Origin: Anseongella ginsenosidimutans
GTDB lineage: Bacteria; Bacteroidota; Bacteroidia; Sphingobacteriales; Sphingobacteriaceae
DNA: 64,000 bases
Direction of reading: 5' to 3'
Assembly: GCF_008033235.1 (NCBI RefSeq)
Contig: NZ_CP042432.1
Coordinates: forward strand, 4,092,001-4,156,000
In this document: in pieces, positions 49,758 to 58,937 of the stretch
Numbering within the stretch: position 1 is the stretch's first letter
Layout of the letters: the number at the start of each line of letters is the position of its first letter
Program-made: the position numbers and the translations under genes
The notes under the pieces: generated by a model
The model's database searches: none
Told to the model about the DNA's origin: nothing
The model's input: only the letters and a program-made list of their open reading frames with translations

Positions 49758-50195
49758 ATGAATGCAAACCAAGGGGTAGATCCTGAAAGGTCTAAAATGA
49801 ATTTTATTGTCATAGATGATAGCAAAGTAGATTGTTTCATAGCTGAAAAAGTGATCCAGAATTCGGGATGGTGCAGCAGCTGCCATACCTTTCAGCTGGC
49901 TACCCAGGCGCTGGAATATATCCGGGAAAACGGATCTTCTTCCCGTTCCACTATTATTTTTGTGGATGAGCATATGCCGCTGATGAGCGGGCTTGATTTT
50001 GTTAATGCCTTTGGCGTGTTGAATATCCCCGCAAAAGATAACTACCATATTTTTCTGCTGTCTTCTTCTCTTTATGAAGGCAGCCAGGAGCTTTATAAAC
50101 ATAACTTAATTAAAAAATTCATAAAAAAACCACTTATTACCAAAACTATTCATGATCTGTTCCATTTTGATTTAAAGTTCCTTTCCCATGAATAA
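49758..50195 (+). CDS. Single-domain response regulator
   Basis: Receiver domain without output domain. FIVIDDSKVDCFIAEKVI carries the acidic pair, IIFVDEHMPLMSG the phospho-acceptor Asp, HIFLLSSSLYEG the conserved Ser/Thr position and FIKKPL the Lys. A second ATG at 49797 (MNFIVIDD) is also a plausible start. It is a paralogue of the receiver at 50959. The next gene starts within its last codons (8-base overlap), so the products are co-translated. Confidence 0.9.
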   Translation: MNANQGVDPERSKMNFIVIDDSKVDCFIAEKVIQNSGWCSSCHTFQLATQALEYIRENGSSSRSTIIFVDEHMPLMSGLDFVNAFGVLNIPAKDNYHIFLLSSSLYEGSQELYKHNLIKKFIKKPLITKTIHDLFHFDLKFLSHE

Positions 50196-50916
50196 CTTAA
50201 TTTTTAAGATCAGAGCATTTAAAGCCGTGGATAACCCGGAAGCCTGCGAGAAGTACATTGAAGGCCATGCTCGTATCCTCCGCCTTTTTGGCCTGTCTAT
50301 GATCACTTCCGCTAACCCCGGATGGCTGGATGATCCCGATACCTATGTTGTTTGCGTGGAATCCGGAGATGGCAGGAAAATATATGGGGGCGGCAGAATA
50401 CAGGTAGCTTCCGGCAACTTACTGCTGCCGATTGAAACGGCCATCTGTGAGAAAGACCCCTCGATCCACCAGACAATTGACATGTATGCCCAAAAAGGTA
50501 CCGGCGAGATCTGCGGGCTCTGGAATTCGCGGGAAATGGCCGCCAATGGCGTTGGCAGCATTCACCTGGGCCGGGCGATGGTGGCCGTTGCGGGACAGCT
50601 GAACCTAAACAGCCTCTTCGCCCTTTGCGCGCCCGCCACGGTCAGAAACTGCATCCGGGTTGGTTATGAAACGGCTCGCTTTATTGGCGACAACGGCCGG
50701 CTCTGTTACCCTAAAGACCATCTTCTGGCAACGGCTATGGTGATCAAAGACCTGCAGAACCTTCCGGCAGCAGCCCCCGGAGAACGGTTGTTGATACAGG
50801 ACCTCAGGGATAACCCTTTTCAGCGAAAGCTGGAACCAGGATTGAAGGGACGGATGCTGGATGTGCAATACGAATTGGATATCAAAGAACAAGTTCCTGT
50901 ATATTGTGTGGCATAA
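50188..50916 (+). CDS. GNAT/autoinducer-synthase-like acyltransferase-fold protein
   Basis: Soluble protein of 242 residues with a GNAT-like look. Strand and turn blocks are KIYGGGRIQVASGNLLLPIETAI, GTGEICGLWNSREMAANGVGSIHL, then a helix and strand (RAMVAVAGQLNLNSLFALCAPATVR) and YETARFIGDNGRLCYPKD. The order (E-x-C/S-G/R-L-W around the central strand, then a helix, then a motif near G-Y-E) resembles LuxI-type and N-acyl-amino-acid synthases more than ordinary acetyltransferases. This is a fold-level inference from motif order, without a clear acyl-CoA loop. It lies between two receiver-domain genes in a coupled operon. Confidence 0.55.
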   Translation: MNNLIFKIRAFKAVDNPEACEKYIEGHARILRLFGLSMITSANPGWLDDPDTYVVCVESGDGRKIYGGGRIQVASGNLLLPIETAICEKDPSIHQTIDMYAQKGTGEICGLWNSREMAANGVGSIHLGRAMVAVAGQLNLNSLFALCAPATVRNCIRVGYETARFIGDNGRLCYPKDHLLATAMVIKDLQNLPAAAPGERLLIQDLRDNPFQRKLEPGLKGRMLDVQYELDIKEQVPVYCVA

Positions 50917-50935
50917 TATTTTCTTCCCGGAAAAG

Positions 50936-50956
50936 TTGTACTTTTATATAGTACAA
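50936..50956. promoter_or_regulatory. Inverted repeat directly before the second response-regulator gene
   Basis: TTGTACT-N7-AGTACAA is a perfect 7-base dyad ending two bases before the ATG at 50959, in the only real gap (42 bases) of the signalling operon. It could be an operator or a hairpin limiting translation. Confidence 0.45.
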
Positions 50957-50958
50957 AC

Positions 50959-51360
50959 ATGGATACAGGAAAGGCGGACTTTATTGTTATTGATGACAAT
51001 AAAGTAGATTGTTTTATTGCGGAGAAAGTAATTGAAAATTCGGGGAAGGGGGAGAGTTGCAGGGTATTCTACCAAGCCACCCAGGCCTTGGAATACATAA
51101 AGGAACAGCATTCCTCGCCGGGCGCTACGATCGTATTCGTAGATATCCAGATGCCGGTCATGAACGGATTTCAATTTGTCGATTATTTCGAACGCCTGCC
51201 CTTACCCAAACAACATTGCTTTTATATCTACGCCTTGTCATCTTCGATCAATCAAGGTGATATTGAAAGAATAAAAGCATTCAGATCCGTGAAAGGATTC
51301 CTTAATAAGCCCTTGACGGTTGAAATGATAAATAATGTAGTGAAAGCCGCCTTTCTATGA
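50959..51360 (+). CDS. Single-domain response regulator
   Basis: Second receiver-only protein, clearly a paralogue of the one at 49758 (FIVIDDNKVDCFIAEKVIENSG, ATQALEYIKEQ). The phospho-acceptor Asp is in IVFVDIQMPVMNG and the Lys in FLNKPLT. 133 residues with no output domain, so it probably acts by protein contact or as a phosphate relay to the kinases downstream. Its stop overlaps the start of the next gene as ATGA. Confidence 0.9.
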   Translation: MDTGKADFIVIDDNKVDCFIAEKVIENSGKGESCRVFYQATQALEYIKEQHSSPGATIVFVDIQMPVMNGFQFVDYFERLPLPKQHCFYIYALSSSINQGDIERIKAFRSVKGFLNKPLTVEMINNVVKAAFL

Positions 51361-53665
51361 ACATAGCTGTACACAAGAAAAAAACAGGAACGCTTAGCAA
51401 TATTTACAGGCCGGACTTCTTCCGGCTGCAGAAGCCCGCGGACAAAGAACGGTTTACCGCGCTGATAGATTCCGGGCCATTATTTCTTCATGACGAGATC
51501 TTCGGTCAGCTCGGGGAGCTGCTAAAATGCCGCCATCCATCCAGGCAACTCAGCAGGGAGGAGAGCGAAGCGCTGATTGCGGAACATACCGGGCCCTGCC
51601 TTGACGAATACGGCGTGTGGGTATATTATCCCTGGAATGCACGGCTGGTTCACCTGCTGGATAAAGAAGAATTTGCCGAAGTCAGGACTTCCCGGAACAA
51701 GTACAAGATCACGAGCGAAGAGCAGGCCCTTCTTTCTTCAAAAAAAGTAGGGGTTATCGGTTTATCGGTGGGGCAATCGGTTGCCGTCACAATGGCGATG
51801 GAACGCTCTTTCGGGGAGATCCGGCTGGCCGATTTTGATATCCTCGAACTCACTAATTTAAACCGCATCCGAACCGGGCTTTCTAACCTGGGATTAAAAA
51901 AAGTGATCGCGGTAGCCCGGGAAATTGCTGAAATTGACCCCTTTCTCCGGGTAACTATTTTTGACGAAGGCCTCACGGAGGAGAATATGGACACTTTTTT
52001 TACCGGGGGCGGAGTACTGGACGCGGTAATTGACGAGTGCGATGGCATAGACATCAAAATCGCCTGCCGGCAGAAAGCCCGGGAACTGGGGGTACCGGTA
52101 TTGATGGAAGCCAGCGACAAATGTACGATCGATGTGGAACGCTTTGACCTGGAGCCCTCCCGCTCCCTCCTGCACGGTTATATCGATCACCTGGACATCT
52201 CCCGGTTGAAACACCTGAAAACCAACGAGGAAAAAATCCCTTACCTGGCTCCGATGGTTGGCATAGATACGATGTCCGCACGGCTGAAAGCTTCCGCGCT
52301 GGAAGTGGGGCATTCCATTACTACCTGGCCTCAGCTTGCCTCCGCAGTAGTGATGGGAGGCGGCGCCCTTGGCGACATCTGGCGGCGCATTGCCCTTGAT
52401 CAGTTCCGCGAATCGGGACGCTACTTCATTGATATGGAAGAGCTGACGGGCAATAAAACCGTGCAGGGATCATTAACCGGAGAGAAGGAAATCCTCCCCG
52501 CTCCTCTTACAGTTTCCGGGATGGCCGCCGGACTGGACCGGTACCTTTCGGAACGCAGAGAAGCGACGTTTGCGCCACCTGAACACATTATCAGGGAACT
52601 GGTAAGGGCAGCCGGCATGGCTCCTTCCGGGGGAAACAGCCAACCCTGGAAGTGGGTTTACAAAAAGGGTACCTTGTTTCTTTTTCTGGACAAGCAGGAA
52701 GCTTATTCTTATATGAATTTCCGGGACACAGCCTCCTACATCGCCCTGGGAGCGGCCATAGAGAACCTGGTATTAAAGGCGGAGCAGTACGGGCTGCGAA
52801 TAAAGGGCGATTATTTCCCCCTGCCTGACAACGATAGCCTGACGAGCGCTTTTAGTTTCCATGAAAGCAGTTCCGCCGGTGAAGGCGTGGAACCCGTAGT
52901 GGAGGGGGCCTGGCGGATTTTATTGAAAAAAGGCATACCAACCGCAAGTTCCCGCCCAGGGAATTACTTCCGCCGGCAATATTGGATGAATTAAAGGGCA
53001 TCGCAGAAACTATACCCGGGGTAAGGCTCACTTATATCCATGCCTTAGACGAGATCATTGAAACAGGAAAGATAATCGGTATCACCGACAGGTACAGGAT
53101 ATTGACGCCTGAAAGCAACCATGATTTTATTCAGCGCGAAATGCGCTGGACGGAAGAAGAAGCTGTCAGCAGCCGCACGGGAATGGACGTGAACACGCTG
53201 GAACTACGCGAATCCGAGCTGATCGGCCTTAAATTTATCAGGGACCCGGAAGTGGTGTCATTTATATCAAAGATAAACGGGGGGCACCTGCTGAAAAACG
53301 CCTCGGTAAAGAATGCCGCCGCCGCTTCCGTATTCGGGCTGCTAACCGTGCCATCCTTCAGCAGTATGAACTTCCTGAACGGAGGAAGAGCGTCCCAGCG
53401 GCTGTGGTTAAAAGCAACACAGCTTGGGCTTGCCTTCCACCCGATGAACGTCCCTCTCGCTTATTTTGCAAGGCTGAAACATGAAAGCAGCGGCCTCTCT
53501 GCCGAAAGGCGGGCGGAAGTGGAGGCGCTTTACAGTAAGTTCAGGAAAATATTCGGCCACTCCGCTGAGCGGGAAGAGATCTATCTTTTCCGCTTATTCA
53601 AAGCAGAAGAGCCCTCGGTGAGGTCTTACCGGAAACAGGTGGACGATATACTAACCTGTATCTGA
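51357..53665 (+). pseudogene. Rv1355c/MoeY-like ThiF(E1)-nitroreductase fusion, split by one missing base
   Basis: Two-domain enzyme. Residues about 100-330 form an E1/ThiF-like adenylating domain (VGVIGLSVGQSVAVTMAMERSFG, IRLADFDILELTNLNRI, GLKKVIAVAREIAEIDPFL, VIDECDGIDIKI). A nitroreductase-like FMN domain starts near 415 (LVRAAGMAPSGGNSQPWKW). The first frame ends at 52994. The next one (annotatable from 52982) continues the nitroreductase (LTVPSFSSMNFLNGGRASQRLW). Between them, the second frame reads ADFIEKRHTNRKFPPRELLPP, the expected nitroreductase core, reached by adding one G to the five at 52904-52908. The intact protein would be about 769 residues, as in Mycobacterium Rv1355c (MoeY). 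The reaction is unknown. It is coupled to the kinase gene by TGATG. Confidence 0.85.
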
Positions 53666-55797
53666 TGCCCGGCTTTATACTACTGATAGTAACTTCTTTT
53701 TTTCTTTACCCGGGGAATGAAGTACTCATTCAGTTTCCCGGAACCAGTATTCAGTATTTTGAAGACAGCCATTCCACGCTTACCGCAAACCAGGTACTGG
53801 ATTCAAATGCTTTCCGCCCCGGCGCCAAGGAAATCCTGAATTTTGGCGTAACCAATTCCACCTATTGGTTCAGGCTGGATATCCGGAATAACAGCGCGGC
53901 CGATGAAGTTTTCTTATTGCTTGAACAACCGCTGCTTGACCTGGTTGAAGTGTATAAGGTATCCGGGAGCCAGGCCATCCTGCTGGATATTATCAGTAAG
54001 GACCAATCATTTTATACCAGGAAATTCCCGCAGATCAACCGCGTCATGAGCATTCCCATCCGCTCCGGGGAAAGCGGGACCGTACTTTTAAAAGTCAGGA
54101 GCGCTTCCACGATTATCCTGCCGCTGAAAATAGGATTCCGGGAACAAATCTTTCATTTTAACTTCAGGAAGGAACTTTGGCTCAGCGTGTACACGGGGAT
54201 CATGCTGGCCACCATTATCTACAACTTGTTCATCTTCTTTTCGATCAGGGACAGGAATTATTTACTCTATGTAGCCTACGTTTTACTCATAACGCTTACA
54301 CAGACAAGCCTTCCCGGCTTTGCCTTTAAATATTTCTGGCCGGGGTTTACCTTCCTGGCCATCCACGGGCCCCTGATCTTTTCCTGCCTCACCGGAATAG
54401 CCGCGCTGGAGTTTATTAAAGAATTTTTGCACGCCAGGGAGTTCACACCGCGGCTCACTATGGGAATCCCCCTTTTTATCGGTCTCTTTATTACCGCCAT
54501 ACTCCTCAGTTTGACCGGGTTCAGGGTAGAAGGATTTCTCATTATGCAAACCGCCACCGCTGCAGCTTCCCTCTTCTCCTTGTTCATTTCTTACCGTATT
54601 TACCGGCTCAATTACCGGCCGGCTAAATTTTTCCTGCTGGCCTGGACCATTTTGCTGGTAGGTGCGGTAGTCTTTGTCTTAAAAGATTTCGAACTGGTGC
54701 CGTATAATAATCTCACTACTTCAGCTGTACTGATCTCCTCCGCCCTGGAAGCACTTTTGTTGTCATTCGCGCTGGCTGACAAGATCAATATGCTTAGAAA
54801 GGAAAAAGAAGAATCGCGTGAGCAGGCGATGGCGGCCATGGCCGAAATAGCAAAGATAGGACGGGAACAAAATATCATACTGGAAACAAAGGTAAGCGAA
54901 CGAACGCTTGCCTTAAAGCAATCGAACGAAGAATTGAATAAGGCGATGCAGGAACTGAAGGAGGCCGAATCACAGCTGGTGGAATCGGAGAAAATGGCCT
55001 CCCTGGGCCAGCTGACCGCGGGAATTGCCCATGAGATCAATAACCCCACTAATTTTGTAACTGCAAACGTAAAACCCCTCAGGCGCGACATTGAAATGAT
55101 CATCAGGCTATTTGAACAAATCGAGGCGGTTGCCGTTTCTGCAGCGGGAGAAGAGGAGAAACAAGCCAGGATCCGTCAGCTGAAAGACGGACTGGATTAT
55201 GGCTACCTTAAGACGGAAATTAACGAACTCATCCGGGGCATTGAGGAAGGGTCGGGCCGTACCGCTGAAATTATCAAAGGATTGCGTAATTTTAGCCGGC
55301 TGGACGAAGCCACTTTAAAGAAAGCCTCCATTAACGAGGGAATAGATTCAACGATCGTAATCATTAACCATATGCTGGAAGGACAGATAGAGATCGTTAA
55401 AAACTACGGTCAGCTCCCGCTGGTGGAATGTTACCCGGGTAAATTAAACCAGGTGTTTCTGAATATACTAACCAACGGCCTTCAGGCTATCAAGGCAAAG
55501 TTCGGAAACCGGCCGGGGGGCGTTTTCACCATTAGCACCTCCGTAAGCGGCAATATTGTCAGGGGTATTTTCAAAGATAACGGCATAGGCATGGACAAAG
55601 GAACCCAGGACAAGATCTTCGAGCCATTTTTCACTACAAAAAAGGTGAATGAGGGTATTGGATTAGGCATGTCAATTGTATATAGCATTGTCCGGAAACA
55701 TAACGGAAAAATCACCGTAATGTCCACGCCGGGAGCAGGCACCGAATTTCATATCCAACTACCCGTTACACATTTCAATGGTGAACCCAACATCTGA
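53665..55797 (+). CDS. 7TM-DISM sensor histidine kinase
   Basis: Membrane sensor kinase. A signal or first helix is followed by a DISMED2-type extracellular domain (about residues 25-155, NSTYWFRLDIRNNS, LLEQPLLDLVEVYKV), seven helices at about 168-375, a coiled coil (about 375-435), then the His box LGQLTAGIAHEINNPTNFV and an HATPase domain with LNQVFLNILTNGLQAI, DNGIGMDKGTQDKIFEPFFTT and GIGLGMSIVYSIV. 710 residues. 7TM-DISM receptors are thought to sense small carbohydrates or other diffusible ligands. Its ATG overlaps the upstream stop, and the downstream gene overlaps by 20 bases. Confidence 0.93.
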   Translation: MPGFILLIVTSFFLYPGNEVLIQFPGTSIQYFEDSHSTLTANQVLDSNAFRPGAKEILNFGVTNSTYWFRLDIRNNSAADEVFLLLEQPLLDLVEVYKVSGSQAILLDIISKDQSFYTRKFPQINRVMSIPIRSGESGTVLLKVRSASTIILPLKIGFREQIFHFNFRKELWLSVYTGIMLATIIYNLFIFFSIRDRNYLLYVAYVLLITLTQTSLPGFAFKYFWPGFTFLAIHGPLIFSCLTGIAALEFIKEFLHAREFTPRLTMGIPLFIGLFITAILLSLTGFRVEGFLIMQTATAAASLFSLFISYRIYRLNYRPAKFFLLAWTILLVGAVVFVLKDFELVPYNNLTTSAVLISSALEALLLSFALADKINMLRKEKEESREQAMAAMAEIAKIGREQNIILETKVSERTLALKQSNEELNKAMQELKEAESQLVESEKMASLGQLTAGIAHEINNPTNFVTANVKPLRRDIEMIIRLFEQIEAVAVSAAGEEEKQARIRQLKDGLDYGYLKTEINELIRGIEEGSGRTAEIIKGLRNFSRLDEATLKKASINEGIDSTIVIINHMLEGQIEIVKNYGQLPLVECYPGKLNQVFLNILTNGLQAIKAKFGNRPGGVFTISTSVSGNIVRGIFKDNGIGMDKGTQDKIFEPFFTTKKVNEGIGLGMSIVYSIVRKHNGKITVMSTPGAGTEFHIQLPVTHFNGEPNI

Positions 55798-56869
55798 TAT
55801 CCGCATATTATTTATTGATGATGAGCCCAATAATCTCATCAGCTTTAAAGCGTCCTTCCGCTATAATTATACGATTTATCTTGCCGGGAACACCGAAGAA
55901 GCAGCAAAACTCCTGGACGAAGACCCTTCAATCAACATTATCTTCAGCGACCAGCGCATGGCGGGTCAAACCGGGGTAGAGTTTTTCGAAGAGATACGTG
56001 AAAAACACCCTGATCCTATACGTATTCTTATCACGGGATATACGGATGTGGAATCGGTCATCGATGCTATTAATAAAGGGCATATATTCCGCTACATTAA
56101 AAAACCCTGGGTCGATTCAGATATTCACCAGGCCATAGACGAAGCGCATAAATTTTACCTAACCGTTTCACTCCTCAAGAAAAAAAACCAAGCCCTTGAA
56201 AAGGCCTATAATGAACTGGATCGTTTCGCCTACAGCGCCACCCATGATATGCGAGGGCCTATTTTAAGCGTACTCGGAATTATTGATCTGATGAAAAATT
56301 CCACCATCCCGCCGGAGGCCAGCGAAATGATCGGGATGATAGAGAATGCCATGCTTAAACTGGACGGCTATATTAAAAGTCTCCATGAACATTATAGCAT
56401 ACGGAGGGGAGAGCTGCACTTTACCAGGATCGCAGTAGAAGAGTTGATCTGCGACATGAGTGCATTATATGATCCTGTCGCATCGCTTCGCAAGACCCGC
56501 TTCCTTAAAACGCAGGCAGGCCTGCCTGCTTTCCGGTCTGACCTCACTTCTCTTAAAATAATTCTTACCAACCTCCTGTCAAATGCTTTCAAGTACCAGC
56601 GAAAGACGGAGACGGAAAAAATGGTTATCCTTGATATCAATGTCAGCATCCAGGAAGTGATCATTAAGGTGTCGGATAACGGAATAGGCATTGCTGAAGA
56701 GAGCCAGGACGACATCTTCAATATTTTCTTTCGGGCTACACACGAAGAATTCGGTTCAGGATTCGGCCTGTATAATGTAAGGGATATCCTGAATAAATTA
56801 AACGGCGATATCCGGGTGGAATCAAAAGAAAATGAAGGAAGCACGTTTACCGTCACAATTCCTTGCTAG
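55778..56869 (+). CDS. REC-histidine kinase hybrid
   Basis: Soluble hybrid: an N-terminal receiver domain (RILFIDDEPNNLISFKASF, phospho-Asp in IIFSDQRMAGQTGVEFF, ILITGYTDVESVIDAINKG, YIKKPW) followed by a helix and a kinase core with His in RFAYSATHDMRGPILSVLG and an ATP-binding part (LTNLLSNAFKYQRK, VSDNGIGIAEESQDDIFNIFF, GSGFGLYNVRDIL). 363 residues and no membrane segment. It is likely to receive phosphate or signal from the 7TM kinase, whose gene it overlaps by 20 bases. Last gene of the coupled run; the NarL-like gene ends 10 bases on, in the opposite direction. Confidence 0.92.
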   Translation: MVNPTSDIRILFIDDEPNNLISFKASFRYNYTIYLAGNTEEAAKLLDEDPSINIIFSDQRMAGQTGVEFFEEIREKHPDPIRILITGYTDVESVIDAINKGHIFRYIKKPWVDSDIHQAIDEAHKFYLTVSLLKKKNQALEKAYNELDRFAYSATHDMRGPILSVLGIIDLMKNSTIPPEASEMIGMIENAMLKLDGYIKSLHEHYSIRRGELHFTRIAVEELICDMSALYDPVASLRKTRFLKTQAGLPAFRSDLTSLKIILTNLLSNAFKYQRKTETEKMVILDINVSIQEVIIKVSDNGIGIAEESQDDIFNIFFRATHEEFGSGFGLYNVRDILNKLNGDIRVESKENEGSTFTVTIPC

Positions 56870-56879
56870 CAATGCCGTG

Positions 56880-57533
56880 TTATATTTTCTCACCCGGAAC
56901 AATACCGTGGATACGGAAACGCTCAATCAGGTCCGTAACCCTGGAAATTGCCATTTTTTCGAAGATCCTTGTCTTATAGGTACTTACTGTGGCTACATGG
57001 AGATTAAGCCGGGTGGCTATTTCCTTTAAGCTCAGACCCTGTATCAGGAACCTGGCAATATCCAGCTCCCTGTTGGAGAGTATTTCCAGGGGATCATCAT
57101 GTTGTTTATCACCATGAAGGAAAGAGCTGATCATATTTTCCTTTACCTTCTCGCTAATATATTTTCCGGTATTAAGCATTTGTTTTACAGCATATTCCAC
57201 TTCATTTTCGCTGGCCAGCTTATGCAGGAAGCCGTCAGCCCCTGTCTGAAGGTAGCGGATAGCATACAATTGCTCATCAAGGGATGAAAATATGAGAATT
57301 TTTGATCTGGGTTGCCTGCGCCTGATAATATCAATTGCATCCTGGTAATTCCCATTTGCCATATTTACATCCAGAATCATCAGGTCAAAATGCTGCGCAG
57401 CTACGGCTTCCAGCGCTTCCCTGAAATCTCTGCTTTCAATGACGGAAACATGGGGATGAATTTTTTTTAACAGCAGCGTAAGGCCTACACGTACAATACT
57501 ATGATCATCCGCAATAAGGACTTTTAACGCCAT
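56880..57533 (-). CDS. NarL/FixJ-family response regulator
   Basis: Transcription factor with receiver (VLIADDHSIVRVGLTLLLKK; phospho-Asp in FDLMILDVNMANG; SSLDEQLYAIRYLQTGADGFLHKLA) and LuxR-type helix-turn-helix (LSNRELDIARFLIQGLSLKEIATRL, then VATVSTYKTRIFEKM). 217 residues. It starts 23 bases after the stop of the kinase gene at 57557, so the two form a two-component pair, transcribed towards and ending next to the other signalling operon. Confidence 0.94.
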   Translation of the reverse strand: MALKVLIADDHSIVRVGLTLLLKKIHPHVSVIESRDFREALEAVAAQHFDLMILDVNMANGNYQDAIDIIRRRQPRSKILIFSSLDEQLYAIRYLQTGADGFLHKLASENEVEYAVKQMLNTGKYISEKVKENMISSFLHGDKQHDDPLEILSNRELDIARFLIQGLSLKEIATRLNLHVATVSTYKTRIFEKMAISRVTDLIERFRIHGIVPGEKI

Positions 57534-57556
57534 ATTTATCTCTTAACTTATAACAT

Positions 57557-58459
57557 TCAGGAATAATAAGAACCAGGTTCGCTATTGCAGAACACCGTTG
57601 CCGTTTTGCCTGTTTCCCCTGGAATGGTCAGCGTGAACACCGAGCCGTTTCCCGGCTCCGATGCGATCTCAAGTGTTCCCTGCTGGATATCTACAAAATC
57701 CTTACAGATCAGGAGCGCAATACCGGCGCCCTTCTCCCCGGCGGTTCCCGTGTAAATTGTTTTTTCATGGCAGAAGATCGCATCCCTTGTTTCTGTATCC
57801 ATTCCAACACCGTAGTCAACTATTTGCACTTTGACCATTTTATCCGGTCTATCCCCGCCACTCTCTATGATGCATTCTATTACAGTACCCGGATAAGAAT
57901 ATTTAACGGCGTTGTTCAGAAGGTTATTTAACACAAAGCCAAGCAGCTGAGGATCGGCGTATATAATGCAACCCTCTTCATCGCCTTTAATAGTTAAAGA
58001 TATTTTTTTCCTTTTAATTTCCGAAATATTATTTTTGATTGATTCCTGCAACGCTTCGGAAGCATTGATGGCTACTGCTTTGTAGGTATACCCTTTCAAC
58101 CTGGTTTTTACCCACTTCAGCGTATTTTCAAAGGACCGCAGGTTATTCTGCGAGGTAGATTTCAACTCCGAGAAAAGCATGTCAAAGCGTTCAGGAGGCA
58201 CCTGGCCTTTCTTATAGAAATCCATCAGGGAGATAATGTTCATGAACGCTCCCCGGAAATCATGTGCAAGGATCGAAATCAGCTTTATCCGGAAATCATC
58301 CTGCTCTCCTTTGAACGTAGGTTCCGGCATAGATGCATCCGCAAGTTTTTCCTTTGGTGCAAACTGCCCGTTTAATTTCTTCAGCCTTCGATGTTGAAAA
58401 AAAATGACCGTCCCGGCGATCAACAATAACAATGATAAGATGTAAAGAGGATAGCCCAT
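57557..58459 (-). CDS. Single-helix membrane sensor histidine kinase
   Basis: I start at the ATG giving MGYPLYILSLLLLIAGTVIFF, a single membrane anchor; the longer frame begins with TTG inside the upstream gene. After a short linker comes the His box, unusual in sequence: LISILAHDFRGAFMNIISLMDF (H-D-F-R where many kinases have H-E/D-L/I-R/K). The ATP-binding domain follows (FVLNNLLNNAVKYSYPGT, VDYGVGMDTETRDAIF, GAGIALLICKDFVDI). No extracellular sensor is visible, so it may sense inside the membrane or through partners. About 301 residues. Paired with the NarL-like regulator downstream. Confidence 0.88.
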   Translation of the reverse strand: MGYPLYILSLLLLIAGTVIFFQHRRLKKLNGQFAPKEKLADASMPEPTFKGEQDDFRIKLISILAHDFRGAFMNIISLMDFYKKGQVPPERFDMLFSELKSTSQNNLRSFENTLKWVKTRLKGYTYKAVAINASEALQESIKNNISEIKRKKISLTIKGDEEGCIIYADPQLLGFVLNNLLNNAVKYSYPGTVIECIIESGGDRPDKMVKVQIVDYGVGMDTETRDAIFCHEKTIYTGTAGEKGAGIALLICKDFVDIQQGTLEIASEPGNGSVFTLTIPGETGKTATVFCNSEPGSYYS

Positions 58460-58532
58460 GTCCCTCTTTTTGCAAATATCATTCCATAAGTAACGGGTAA
58501 AATTCCAGGGAAGAGCCAGAAAATGTAACTCT

Positions 58533-58937
58533 TTAAGAATGAAGGTCGTGCAGAAGCGAAGGATCGGACTTGCCAACCTGGTTCAACAGCATACTATTAT
58601 ACTCTTCAAGCAAAGAAATGTACTTGTTTTTCCAATGGCCGAGATTTTGTGCAACCGTCGCGTCTTCCGAGAGCGCCGCATAGGGGCTGCGGGCTTCCCT
58701 TAATCCTGTTCCTGAAAGCTTAAAATCTTCGGGGGTAAACAAATGGGGAAATTCCGCGGAAAAGTCATGACGCAGGGCGCATCCTACCCGGTAAATAATT
58801 TCCGCCTTTAAGTTTCTTTGAAGGAACCAGTTGTAGATCGTTCTTCGGTTTACGTTAAGGGTACGGGCTAGTTCACTGATACTGTAACCATTTCTCCTAA
58901 TTGTACGTTCAATTGTTTCGCCGTAATGTGTGTTCAT
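58533..58937 (-). CDS. Helix-turn-helix regulator-like protein
   Basis: Small protein of 134 residues with an XRE-like helix-turn-helix at about residues 8-45 (IERTIRRNGYSISELARTLNVN, RRTIYNWFLQRNLKAEIIYRVG). The rest is helical (HWKNKYISLLEEYNSMLLNQ). It precedes the kinase gene by 73 bases on the same strand and may regulate this operon or be a third member of it. No known family name comes to mind beyond HTH_3-like. Confidence 0.8.
   Translation of the reverse strand: MNTHYGETIERTIRRNGYSISELARTLNVNRRTIYNWFLQRNLKAEIIYRVGCALRHDFSAEFPHLFTPEDFKLSGTGLREARSPYAALSEDATVAQNLGHWKNKYISLLEEYNSMLLNQVGKSDPSLLHDLHS

Follow-up and report, generated by a model that had tools for sequence, protein, structure and literature searches.

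The window analysed here is a stretch of 64,000 nucleotides from Anseongella ginsenosidimutans (contig NZ_CP042432.1, positions 4,092,001 to 4,156,000 of the forward strand), and all positions are counted from its first letter. At 49758-56869 (+) it carries six same-strand genes, encoding two receiver-only proteins, a putative N-acyltransferase (AT), a tailoring enzyme, a 7TMR-DISM histidine kinase (DISM-kinase) and a REC-histidine kinase hybrid (REC-kinase). In related loci, from soil and water Bacteroidota, the sensor half of the DISM-kinase sorts by the class of tailoring enzyme encoded, whereas the AT, the kinase half of the same protein and the REC-kinase do not. We consider it likely that the operon is a cassette for the synthesis and perception of a signal, with the DISM-kinase sensing a tailored N-acyl-amino-acid product, which would make it a candidate quorum-sensing system. 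The genes are:

49758..50195, +, RR1, receiver-only protein, 145 residues (Pfam Response_reg 25.7 bits, under the cut-off of 30.2)
50188..50916, +, AT, putative N-acyl-amino-acid synthase, 242 residues, an N-acyltransferase resembling FeeM and the acyl-homoserine-lactone (AHL) synthases in predicted structure
50959..51360, +, RR2, receiver-only (CheY-like) protein, 133 residues, of the recB type common in the cassette (Response_reg 42.3 bits)
51357..52994, +, tailoring gene, fragment 1: ThiF/E1-like cyclase domain and start of the flavin (FDO) domain, TrzS/Rv1355c family (NF005901, 2e-167)
52934..53665, +, tailoring gene, fragment 2, in another frame: remainder of the FDO domain (NF005901 positions 484-719, 2e-59)
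53665..55797, +, 7TMR-DISM histidine kinase, 710 residues (PF07696 5.6e-26, PF07695 1.7e-42, PF02518 6.2e-21)
55778..56869, +, REC-histidine kinase hybrid, 363 residues (PF00072, PF02518)

A first-pass annotation had described this run as a tightly coupled six-gene signalling operon. Its genes, junctions and domains are as it stated, but a frameshift interrupts the E1-nitroreductase gene and RR1 is a weak REC protein. The junctions are, in order, an 8-base overlap, a 42-base gap, ATGA, TGATG and a 20-base overlap; these had been taken as a sign that stoichiometry matters, which overlaps alone do not show. The Pfam domains are, in gene order, REC, REC, ThiF plus nitroreductase, 7TMR-DISMED2 plus 7TMR-DISM_7TM plus HATPase_c, and REC plus HATPase_c. 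The proposal of two kinases, one with a 7TM sensor of a ligand-sensing type, agrees with these matches, and the HisKA matches in both kinases fall under the Pfam cut-off. For the tests described below the DISM-kinase was divided into ED2 (residues ~24-165), 7TM (166-380) and kinase (440-710). In a congener (genome G395, locus L144) the gene order is AT, RR2, E1-FDO, DISM-kinase and REC-kinase, and no RR1-like open reading frame (ORF) was found upstream of the AT or on the contig.

Relatives of the AT were collected with an alignment-profile search of genome contigs, one genome for each of 84,980 species. It returned 398, the best 80 of which were retained; run with the window AT alone as query, the same scan found none. 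The DISM-kinase lies in the AT gene run in 79 of these best 80 of 398, the single miss (L085) being a 3.6-kb contig that ends there, and the REC-kinase in 74, with four of the six misses at contig ends. Bacteroidota is the label of 79 of the 80 kept loci and Azovibrio that of the remaining one; an identical AT occurs in metagenome-assembled genomes titled Azovibrio and Bacteroides (L044, L045), whose taxon labels are doubtful. When 395 Bacteroidota genomes were searched with NF005901, our reading of the scores left 11 with a real Rv1355c-type E1 region (G000 and ten others, one at a contig edge), and all ten others carry the AT and the DISM-kinase in the same gene run. The AT profile gave 13 positives in these 395 genomes, namely the 11 E1 genomes, G126 and G383, with the DISM-kinase in the AT gene run in 13/13, window genome included. 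Within the window's order, 221/400 genomes from 20/22 genera were AT-positive; 60 loci fetched from these 221 have a DISM protein beside the AT or the tailoring gene in every case and the REC-kinase in 57/60. The neighbourhood, for which the first-pass annotation had asked for a survey and whose restriction to this genome it would have taken as a refutation, is thus kept far beyond the window genome, and its conservation in so many genomes makes the operon more than a chance arrangement. Sensor-profile matches at E 1e-35 occur in 66/395 genomes; the top match of each of the 13 AT genomes is the kinase of the AT run. No AT lay beside the sensor matches of AT-less genomes in the stretches fetched (13 places, 10 genomes). 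High scores with the cassette sensor profile were also obtained by 7TMR-DISM proteins of ~500-550 residues that have no kinase match, in four genomes of one family (L148-L151), with no AT in the fetched stretch.

The tailoring gene occupies a slot that is filled in different ways. Of the 80 loci, 50 have an E1-FDO gene there, 15 an E1 gene alone, 8 a class I S-adenosylmethionine-dependent methyltransferase (MT) and 6 a flavoenzyme of the VAO/p-cresol-methylhydroxylase type, and in one the contig end cuts the slot. A fifth type, a membrane methyltransferase of the ICMT/PEMT type (~213 residues), is found in G126 and G383 (L142:7703-8344, L143:9262-9903). The 60 loci from the order divide into 27 E1-FDO, 18 E1, 14 MT and 1 VAO. 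Length and inspection served for a first assignment of the MT and VAO types, which BLAST then confirmed: 8/8 MT genes were 42-100% identical to that of L088 and 6/6 VAO genes 48-100% to that of L048; Pfam was run on three of each. The best PDB match of the VAO type (L048) was at 4.6e-61, and 4-cresol dehydrogenase matched at 1.8e-59. Since known enzymes of this family act on 4-hydroxyphenyl compounds, the VAO slot would suit an N-acyl tyrosine substrate. Two gene orders exist, with the AT before the slot gene (AT-tail) or after it (tail-AT). The phospho-acceptor residues of the kinases and receivers are intact: the H-box His456 of the DISM-kinase is kept in 76/76, Asp58 and His156 of the REC-kinase in 74/74, and the receiver Asp in 48/48 recB and 71/71 recA proteins. 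The receiver-only recB is present in 47/80 loci, and the 154-residue receiver recA, usually on the opposite strand, in 71/80. Among the neighbour families labelled, the recurring ones are receivers and kinases.

A kinase that senses the finished molecule should have a sensor half that follows the slot enzyme, and this expectation was the key test. Changes of slot type were counted on IQ-TREE quick trees of the AT, ED2, 7TM, the kinase half and the REC-kinase. The 80 kept loci, the window and 13 others made 94 loci, of which 90 had a whole DISM-kinase (L059, L076, L085 and L108 were dropped). Before any changes were counted, L055 was typed as ThiF-FDO, and so was L067, which retains only the flavin part because its contig starts there. 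With five slot types and a minimum of 4 changes, these 90 loci required 21 changes on the AT tree (a quick tree with several long branches, among them L040, L041, L037 and L032), 20 on that of the kinase half, 12 on ED2 and 10 on 7TM. A 75-locus set, which leaves out 13 loci without loaded REC-kinases and two without a recognised one (L052, L093), has four types and a minimum of 3 changes; here 7TM and ED2 needed 4 each, compared with 11 for the AT, 12 for the kinase half and 14 for the REC-kinase. Bootstrap means from 24 replicates each were 4.3 (7TM), 6.4 (ED2), 12.6 (AT), 12.8 (kinase) and 13.4 (REC-kinase). When the DISM-kinase was cut into segments of 75 residues, those within residues 20-409 gave 4-8 changes and those from residue 370 or later 11-17, a sharp step at residue ~370-440; segments of the AT gave 9-15 and of the REC-kinase 13-15. 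The nearest neighbour, with AT pairs above 80% identity excluded, was of the same slot type for 73 of the 75 loci by 7TM and 71 by ED2, and for 53, 51 and 50 by REC-kinase, kinase half and AT, respectively.

The pattern was reproduced in 39 of the 60 order-level loci, after leaving out 17 that were more than 95% like the first set, near-identical loci and those lacking a recognised DISM- or REC-kinase. The changes required were 5 on 7TM, 6 on ED2, 12 on the AT, 13 on the kinase half and 17 on the REC-kinase, and shuffled labels averaged 19. Nearest neighbours shared the slot type in 38 of the 39 loci for 7TM, where the miss is the only VAO locus, in 34 for ED2, 29 for the AT, 21 for the REC-kinase and 20 for the kinase half. 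Pooling gave 114 loci once those with an identical sensor stretch were removed, and these needed 7 (7TM), 9 (ED2), 19 (AT), 27 (REC-kinase) and 28 (kinase) changes. In the 74 of them with the AT before the slot gene the counts were 5 for 7TM and 7 for ED2, compared with 18 for the AT, 20 for the kinase half and 18 for the REC-kinase. As with the specificity determinants of agr, sensor half and slot enzyme co-vary and the flanks do not, with little power to see this in the tail-AT order.

Natural swaps were examined in pairs picked by eye, not at random, for high AT identity and a different slot. In one such pair, Sphingobacterium sp. SGG-5 (L095, MT) and S. tabacisoli (L111, E1), the identity is 89% for the AT, 82% for the kinase half and 73% for the REC-kinase, but 22% for ED2 and 27% for 7TM. 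The detectable DNA similarity of the three pairs compared ends at or near the AT end, at most ~90 bases from it, and resumes within the DISM-kinase gene at residue ~384 (L095/L111), ~333 (L048/L050) or ~374 (L118/L035). In all three, a block made of the tailoring gene and the sensor half is flanked by conserved DNA. Trees and DNA comparison together show the sensor half and the tailoring enzyme being passed on and swapped as a unit, with the AT, the kinase half and the REC-kinase left in place.

Directly downstream of the cassette, window positions 56880-58937 hold convergent genes for a LuxR-type response regulator, a histidine kinase and an HTH protein, which are possible output genes. Similar-looking ORFs adjoin the cassette of the congener (L144:7795-9849).

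We then considered what the enzymes might make. The AT matched no Pfam family at E 0.1, and so not the autoinducer-synthase (LuxI) family either, and a PDB sequence search returned nothing meaningful. An AlphaFold2 model built from a 48-sequence alignment (pLDDT 87.4, pTM 0.87) retrieved with Foldseek the CoA-dependent AHL synthase BjaI at rank 1 (8.8e-8) and the N-acyl amino acid synthase FeeM at 8.8e-7. Comparison of the model with VIA placed FeeM first (Z 16.0, rmsd 2.7, 178 aligned), and the AHL synthases LasI, RpaI and BjaI scored Z 15.1, 14.4 and 13.9; identities to FeeM and the AHL synthases in the structural alignments are 9-14%. The predicted fold is that of an acyltransferase, with coverage and gene context speaking for a use like that of FeeM. 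This bears out the first-pass description of a GNAT-like protein reminiscent of LuxI or N-acyl-amino-acid synthases, for which an unrelated structure had been named beforehand as a possible refutation. The AT was also compared with TrzA-like proteins, so named by their position beside two actinobacterial TrzS genes (L124, L147) and ~41-44% identical to each other. Profile-profile alignment with hhalign gave E 5.3e-5 over 166 columns (probability 67%); the single-sequence comparison was weaker (probability 6%), as was hmmsearch (best match E 0.016), and a profile search (A3) of three plasmid records for this relationship gave no match. By profile comparison the AT may be a distant relative of the TrzA-like proteins. 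A Streptomyces GNAT encoded beside a ThiF gene showed no relation to the AT. L055:8756-10717 holds two different AT genes one after the other, with the E1-FDO gene on one side and the DISM-kinase on the other.

The slot enzyme of the window is Rv1355c-like, as first proposed: ORF 51357-52994 alone scores 558.6 bits against the cut-off of 476 of NCBIfam NF005901 (Rv1355c family), and the two fragments match this profile in order, the former over positions 6-469. The protein is colinear with two actinobacterial TrzS proteins (34 and 37% identity). Residues N167, R170, K182 and D229 of E1, which from MoeB and ThiF we take to be adenylation and catalytic residues, are invariant in six aligned proteins, two of them actinobacterial, and the alignment columns of R170, K182 and D229 are kept in 65/65 cassette E1 proteins. 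The gene is not one open frame, however: ORF 51357-52994 breaks off within the flavin domain, and what remains of the gene, as far as 53665, continues in a different frame, with the change located at ~52890 to 52940. In the congener (L144) an uninterrupted E1-FDO frame encodes 778 residues, 66% identical to fragment 1, and among the 80 kept loci ThiF-FDO is a single frame of 752-795 residues in 50/50 whole-gene loci. The window genome, or its assembly, carries a frameshift in the E1-FDO gene, which is either a sequencing error or recent mutation, or a change of product. A programmed frameshift was considered and thought unlikely, in view of the single frames of the congener and the 50 loci.

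For TrzS of Mycobacterium smegmatis, a member of the Rv1355c family, ATP-dependent cyclisation and O2-dependent desaturation of N-acyl tryptophan have been shown, and N-acyl oxazolones are the products of the family (PMC12856293). The authors of that paper describe what oxazolones do physiologically as a major unresolved question, suggest signalling from their likeness to known signals and from neighbouring cyclic di-GMP genes, and report the acyl-tryptophan intermediates mainly in the supernatant. According to the same paper, oxazolones do not survive acid or alcohol. This chemistry supports the earlier proposal that the two enzymes make a signal. On a Rhodococcus plasmid (L124:3970-8172) a TrzS gene lies with a TrzA-like gene and a GGDEF gene, an echo of the cyclic di-GMP neighbours of M. 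tuberculosis trzAS. On a Streptomyces plasmid (L126:5158-8072) a ThiF-type E1 gene overlaps a gene annotated as beta-ketoacyl-ACP synthase 3, possibly for a different acyl chemistry.

From these results we propose the following model. The AT would join an acyl chain from acyl-CoA, or from an acyl carrier protein, to an amino acid, most likely an aromatic one. By analogy to mycobacterial TrzS, the ThiF/E1 domain of the window's slot enzyme would adenylate the N-acyl amino acid and cyclise it to an oxazolone, which its flavin mononucleotide domain would desaturate; E1 alone, the S-adenosylmethionine-dependent methyltransferase, the VAO-type oxidase or the ICMT-type enzyme would give a differently finished product. 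With its desaturase half frameshifted, the window genome may make a saturated oxazolone, as expected of E1-only species, unless the frameshift is a sequencing error. The lipophilic product would be read by the ED2/7TM sensor of the DISM-kinase, most likely at or in the 7TM bundle, and the kinase would signal through the REC-kinase and the receiver-only proteins to targets outside the cassette. That the DISM-kinase is the cognate receptor we infer from the sorting of its sensor by slot type, which also favours the earlier idea that the kinases read the signal. Exchange of the block would then be an exchange of signal/receptor types, as with agr pherotypes. It is fairly probable, in our view, that the cassettes form a new class of quorum-sensing system, with N-acyl-amino-acid autoinducers, at least five interchangeable finishing types (an oxazolone cyclase with or without desaturase, two unrelated methyltransferases, a VAO-type oxidase) and matched receptor halves traded between genera as pherotype cassettes, and that oxazolone-type lipids have a signalling role in it.

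Some observations weigh against a signal cassette. The FDO half is out of frame in the very genome in which the operon was noticed, and general GNATs stand within ~1 Z of FeeM in the fold comparison (1xeb 15.2, 5z6n 15.1). No DNA-binding or output domain was found in the cassette proteins scanned by Pfam, including the receivers (two recA, one recB, RR1 and RR2). In the 40 tail-AT loci the counts (AT 2, ED2 3, 7TM 3, kinase 4, REC-kinase 4) offer a contrast too small to judge. Co-variation among the E1-bearing loci is moderate, with 35 of 60 splits shared by E1 and 7TM, 29 by E1 and AT and 24 by E1 and kinase. At 40-60% kinase identity, same-type and different-type sensor pairs are almost alike. 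Moreover, the tailoring gene adjoins the sensor in the AT-tail order, so linkage between the conserved flanks could transfer both together. This last point can be extended to an explanation by linkage throughout, in which the diverged tailoring gene and sensor half are exchanged by homologous recombination in the conserved flanks, with no functional matching. The junctions indeed lie near the edges of the conserved AT and kinase sequences, recombination needs conserved flanks once the sensors have diverged, and the AT itself follows the slot type when it is inside the tract (tail-AT, 2 changes in 40 loci). Such linkage does not account for the divergence of just one half of a kinase gene into classes that correspond to those of the enzymes. 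The pooled 114 loci require 7 changes of type by the 7TM tree and 28 by the kinase tree, and we regard linkage throughout as rather improbable.

The cassette could also work in the opposite sense, with kinases that sense external stress and an oxazolone lipid that is an output for membrane or stress physiology. Stress adaptation is among the oxazolone roles proposed in PMC12856293, and the tyrazolone of M. tuberculosis was detected in pelleted cells but not in the supernatant (PMC10404671), an observation that favours an output lipid and counts against a diffusible signal. An output lipid, however, would not account for a sensor half that, by itself, sorts with the finishing enzyme, and this explanation, the least improbable of those opposed to signalling, is still unlikely. 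That the product is an antibiotic or interference compound, monitored by the 7TM kinase for self-protection or production timing, we consider quite improbable, and slightly more so than linkage: Stieleria makes N-acyl tyrosine derivatives with antimicrobial activity, as cited in PMC12856293, but the recurring labelled neighbours are receivers and kinases. The similarity of the domain to ThiF and MoeB might instead suggest a molybdopterin (MoeY-like) or other cofactor enzyme set that stands beside kinases by chance. We find this scarcely credible, given the same gene run in 79/80, 13/13 and 60/60 loci, the TrzS/Rv1355c cut-off passed, and an E1 slot that a methyltransferase or oxidase can fill; MoeY cofactor biosynthesis in a chance neighbourhood was rejected on the conserved block and swappable slot.

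We favour the signal cassette, and natural swap pairs such as L095 and L111 make the signalling idea directly testable. If true, Bacteroidota would have a small-molecule communication system in common use, carried by more than half of the genomes sampled in one order, a ligand class could be proposed for 7TMR-DISM kinases, oxazolone-type lipids would gain a role in signalling, and small-molecule pherotypes would evolve as the agr peptide pherotypes do. No earlier account of this operon in Bacteroidota, of its swappable slot or of the joint exchange with the sensor was found in open-access literature listings, outside which lie most subscription papers and all preprints.

Among known systems, TrzAS (Rv1356c-Rv1355c), TyzACB and OxzAB likewise place an N-acyltransferase next to a ThiF cyclase that is fused or adjacent to a flavin desaturase, and the trzAS locus of M. 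tuberculosis has been described next to cyclic di-GMP genes (PMC12856293). The cassette differs from them in an AT with no Pfam match, a swappable second enzyme and a sensor kinase pair within the operon. The stieleriacine and thalassotalic acid clusters resemble it in combining genes for an N-acyl amino acid synthase, a ThiF protein, a nitroreductase and, in Stieleria, a methyltransferase, but they belong to Planctomycetota and Pseudomonadota, and the passages of PMC12479983 available to us show no sensor kinases.

FeeM and the AHL synthases LuxI, BjaI and RpaI share the predicted fold of the AT, at the low identity given above and with no Pfam match. LuxM/LuxN and CqsA/CqsS also pair a synthase with a multi-transmembrane kinase for a small lipophilic signal, but the cassette, a putative signalling system, has a 7TMR-DISM sensor, different synthase and tailoring chemistry, and a home in Bacteroidota. 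An evolutionary parallel is offered by agr and comQXP, where a gene that modifies the signal and the sensor half of a kinase diverge and are transferred jointly, with conserved sequence on either side. In the cassette, by contrast, the signal would be a small molecule and not a peptide, the exchange reaches across genera, and the tailoring enzyme changes its class and not just its sequence.

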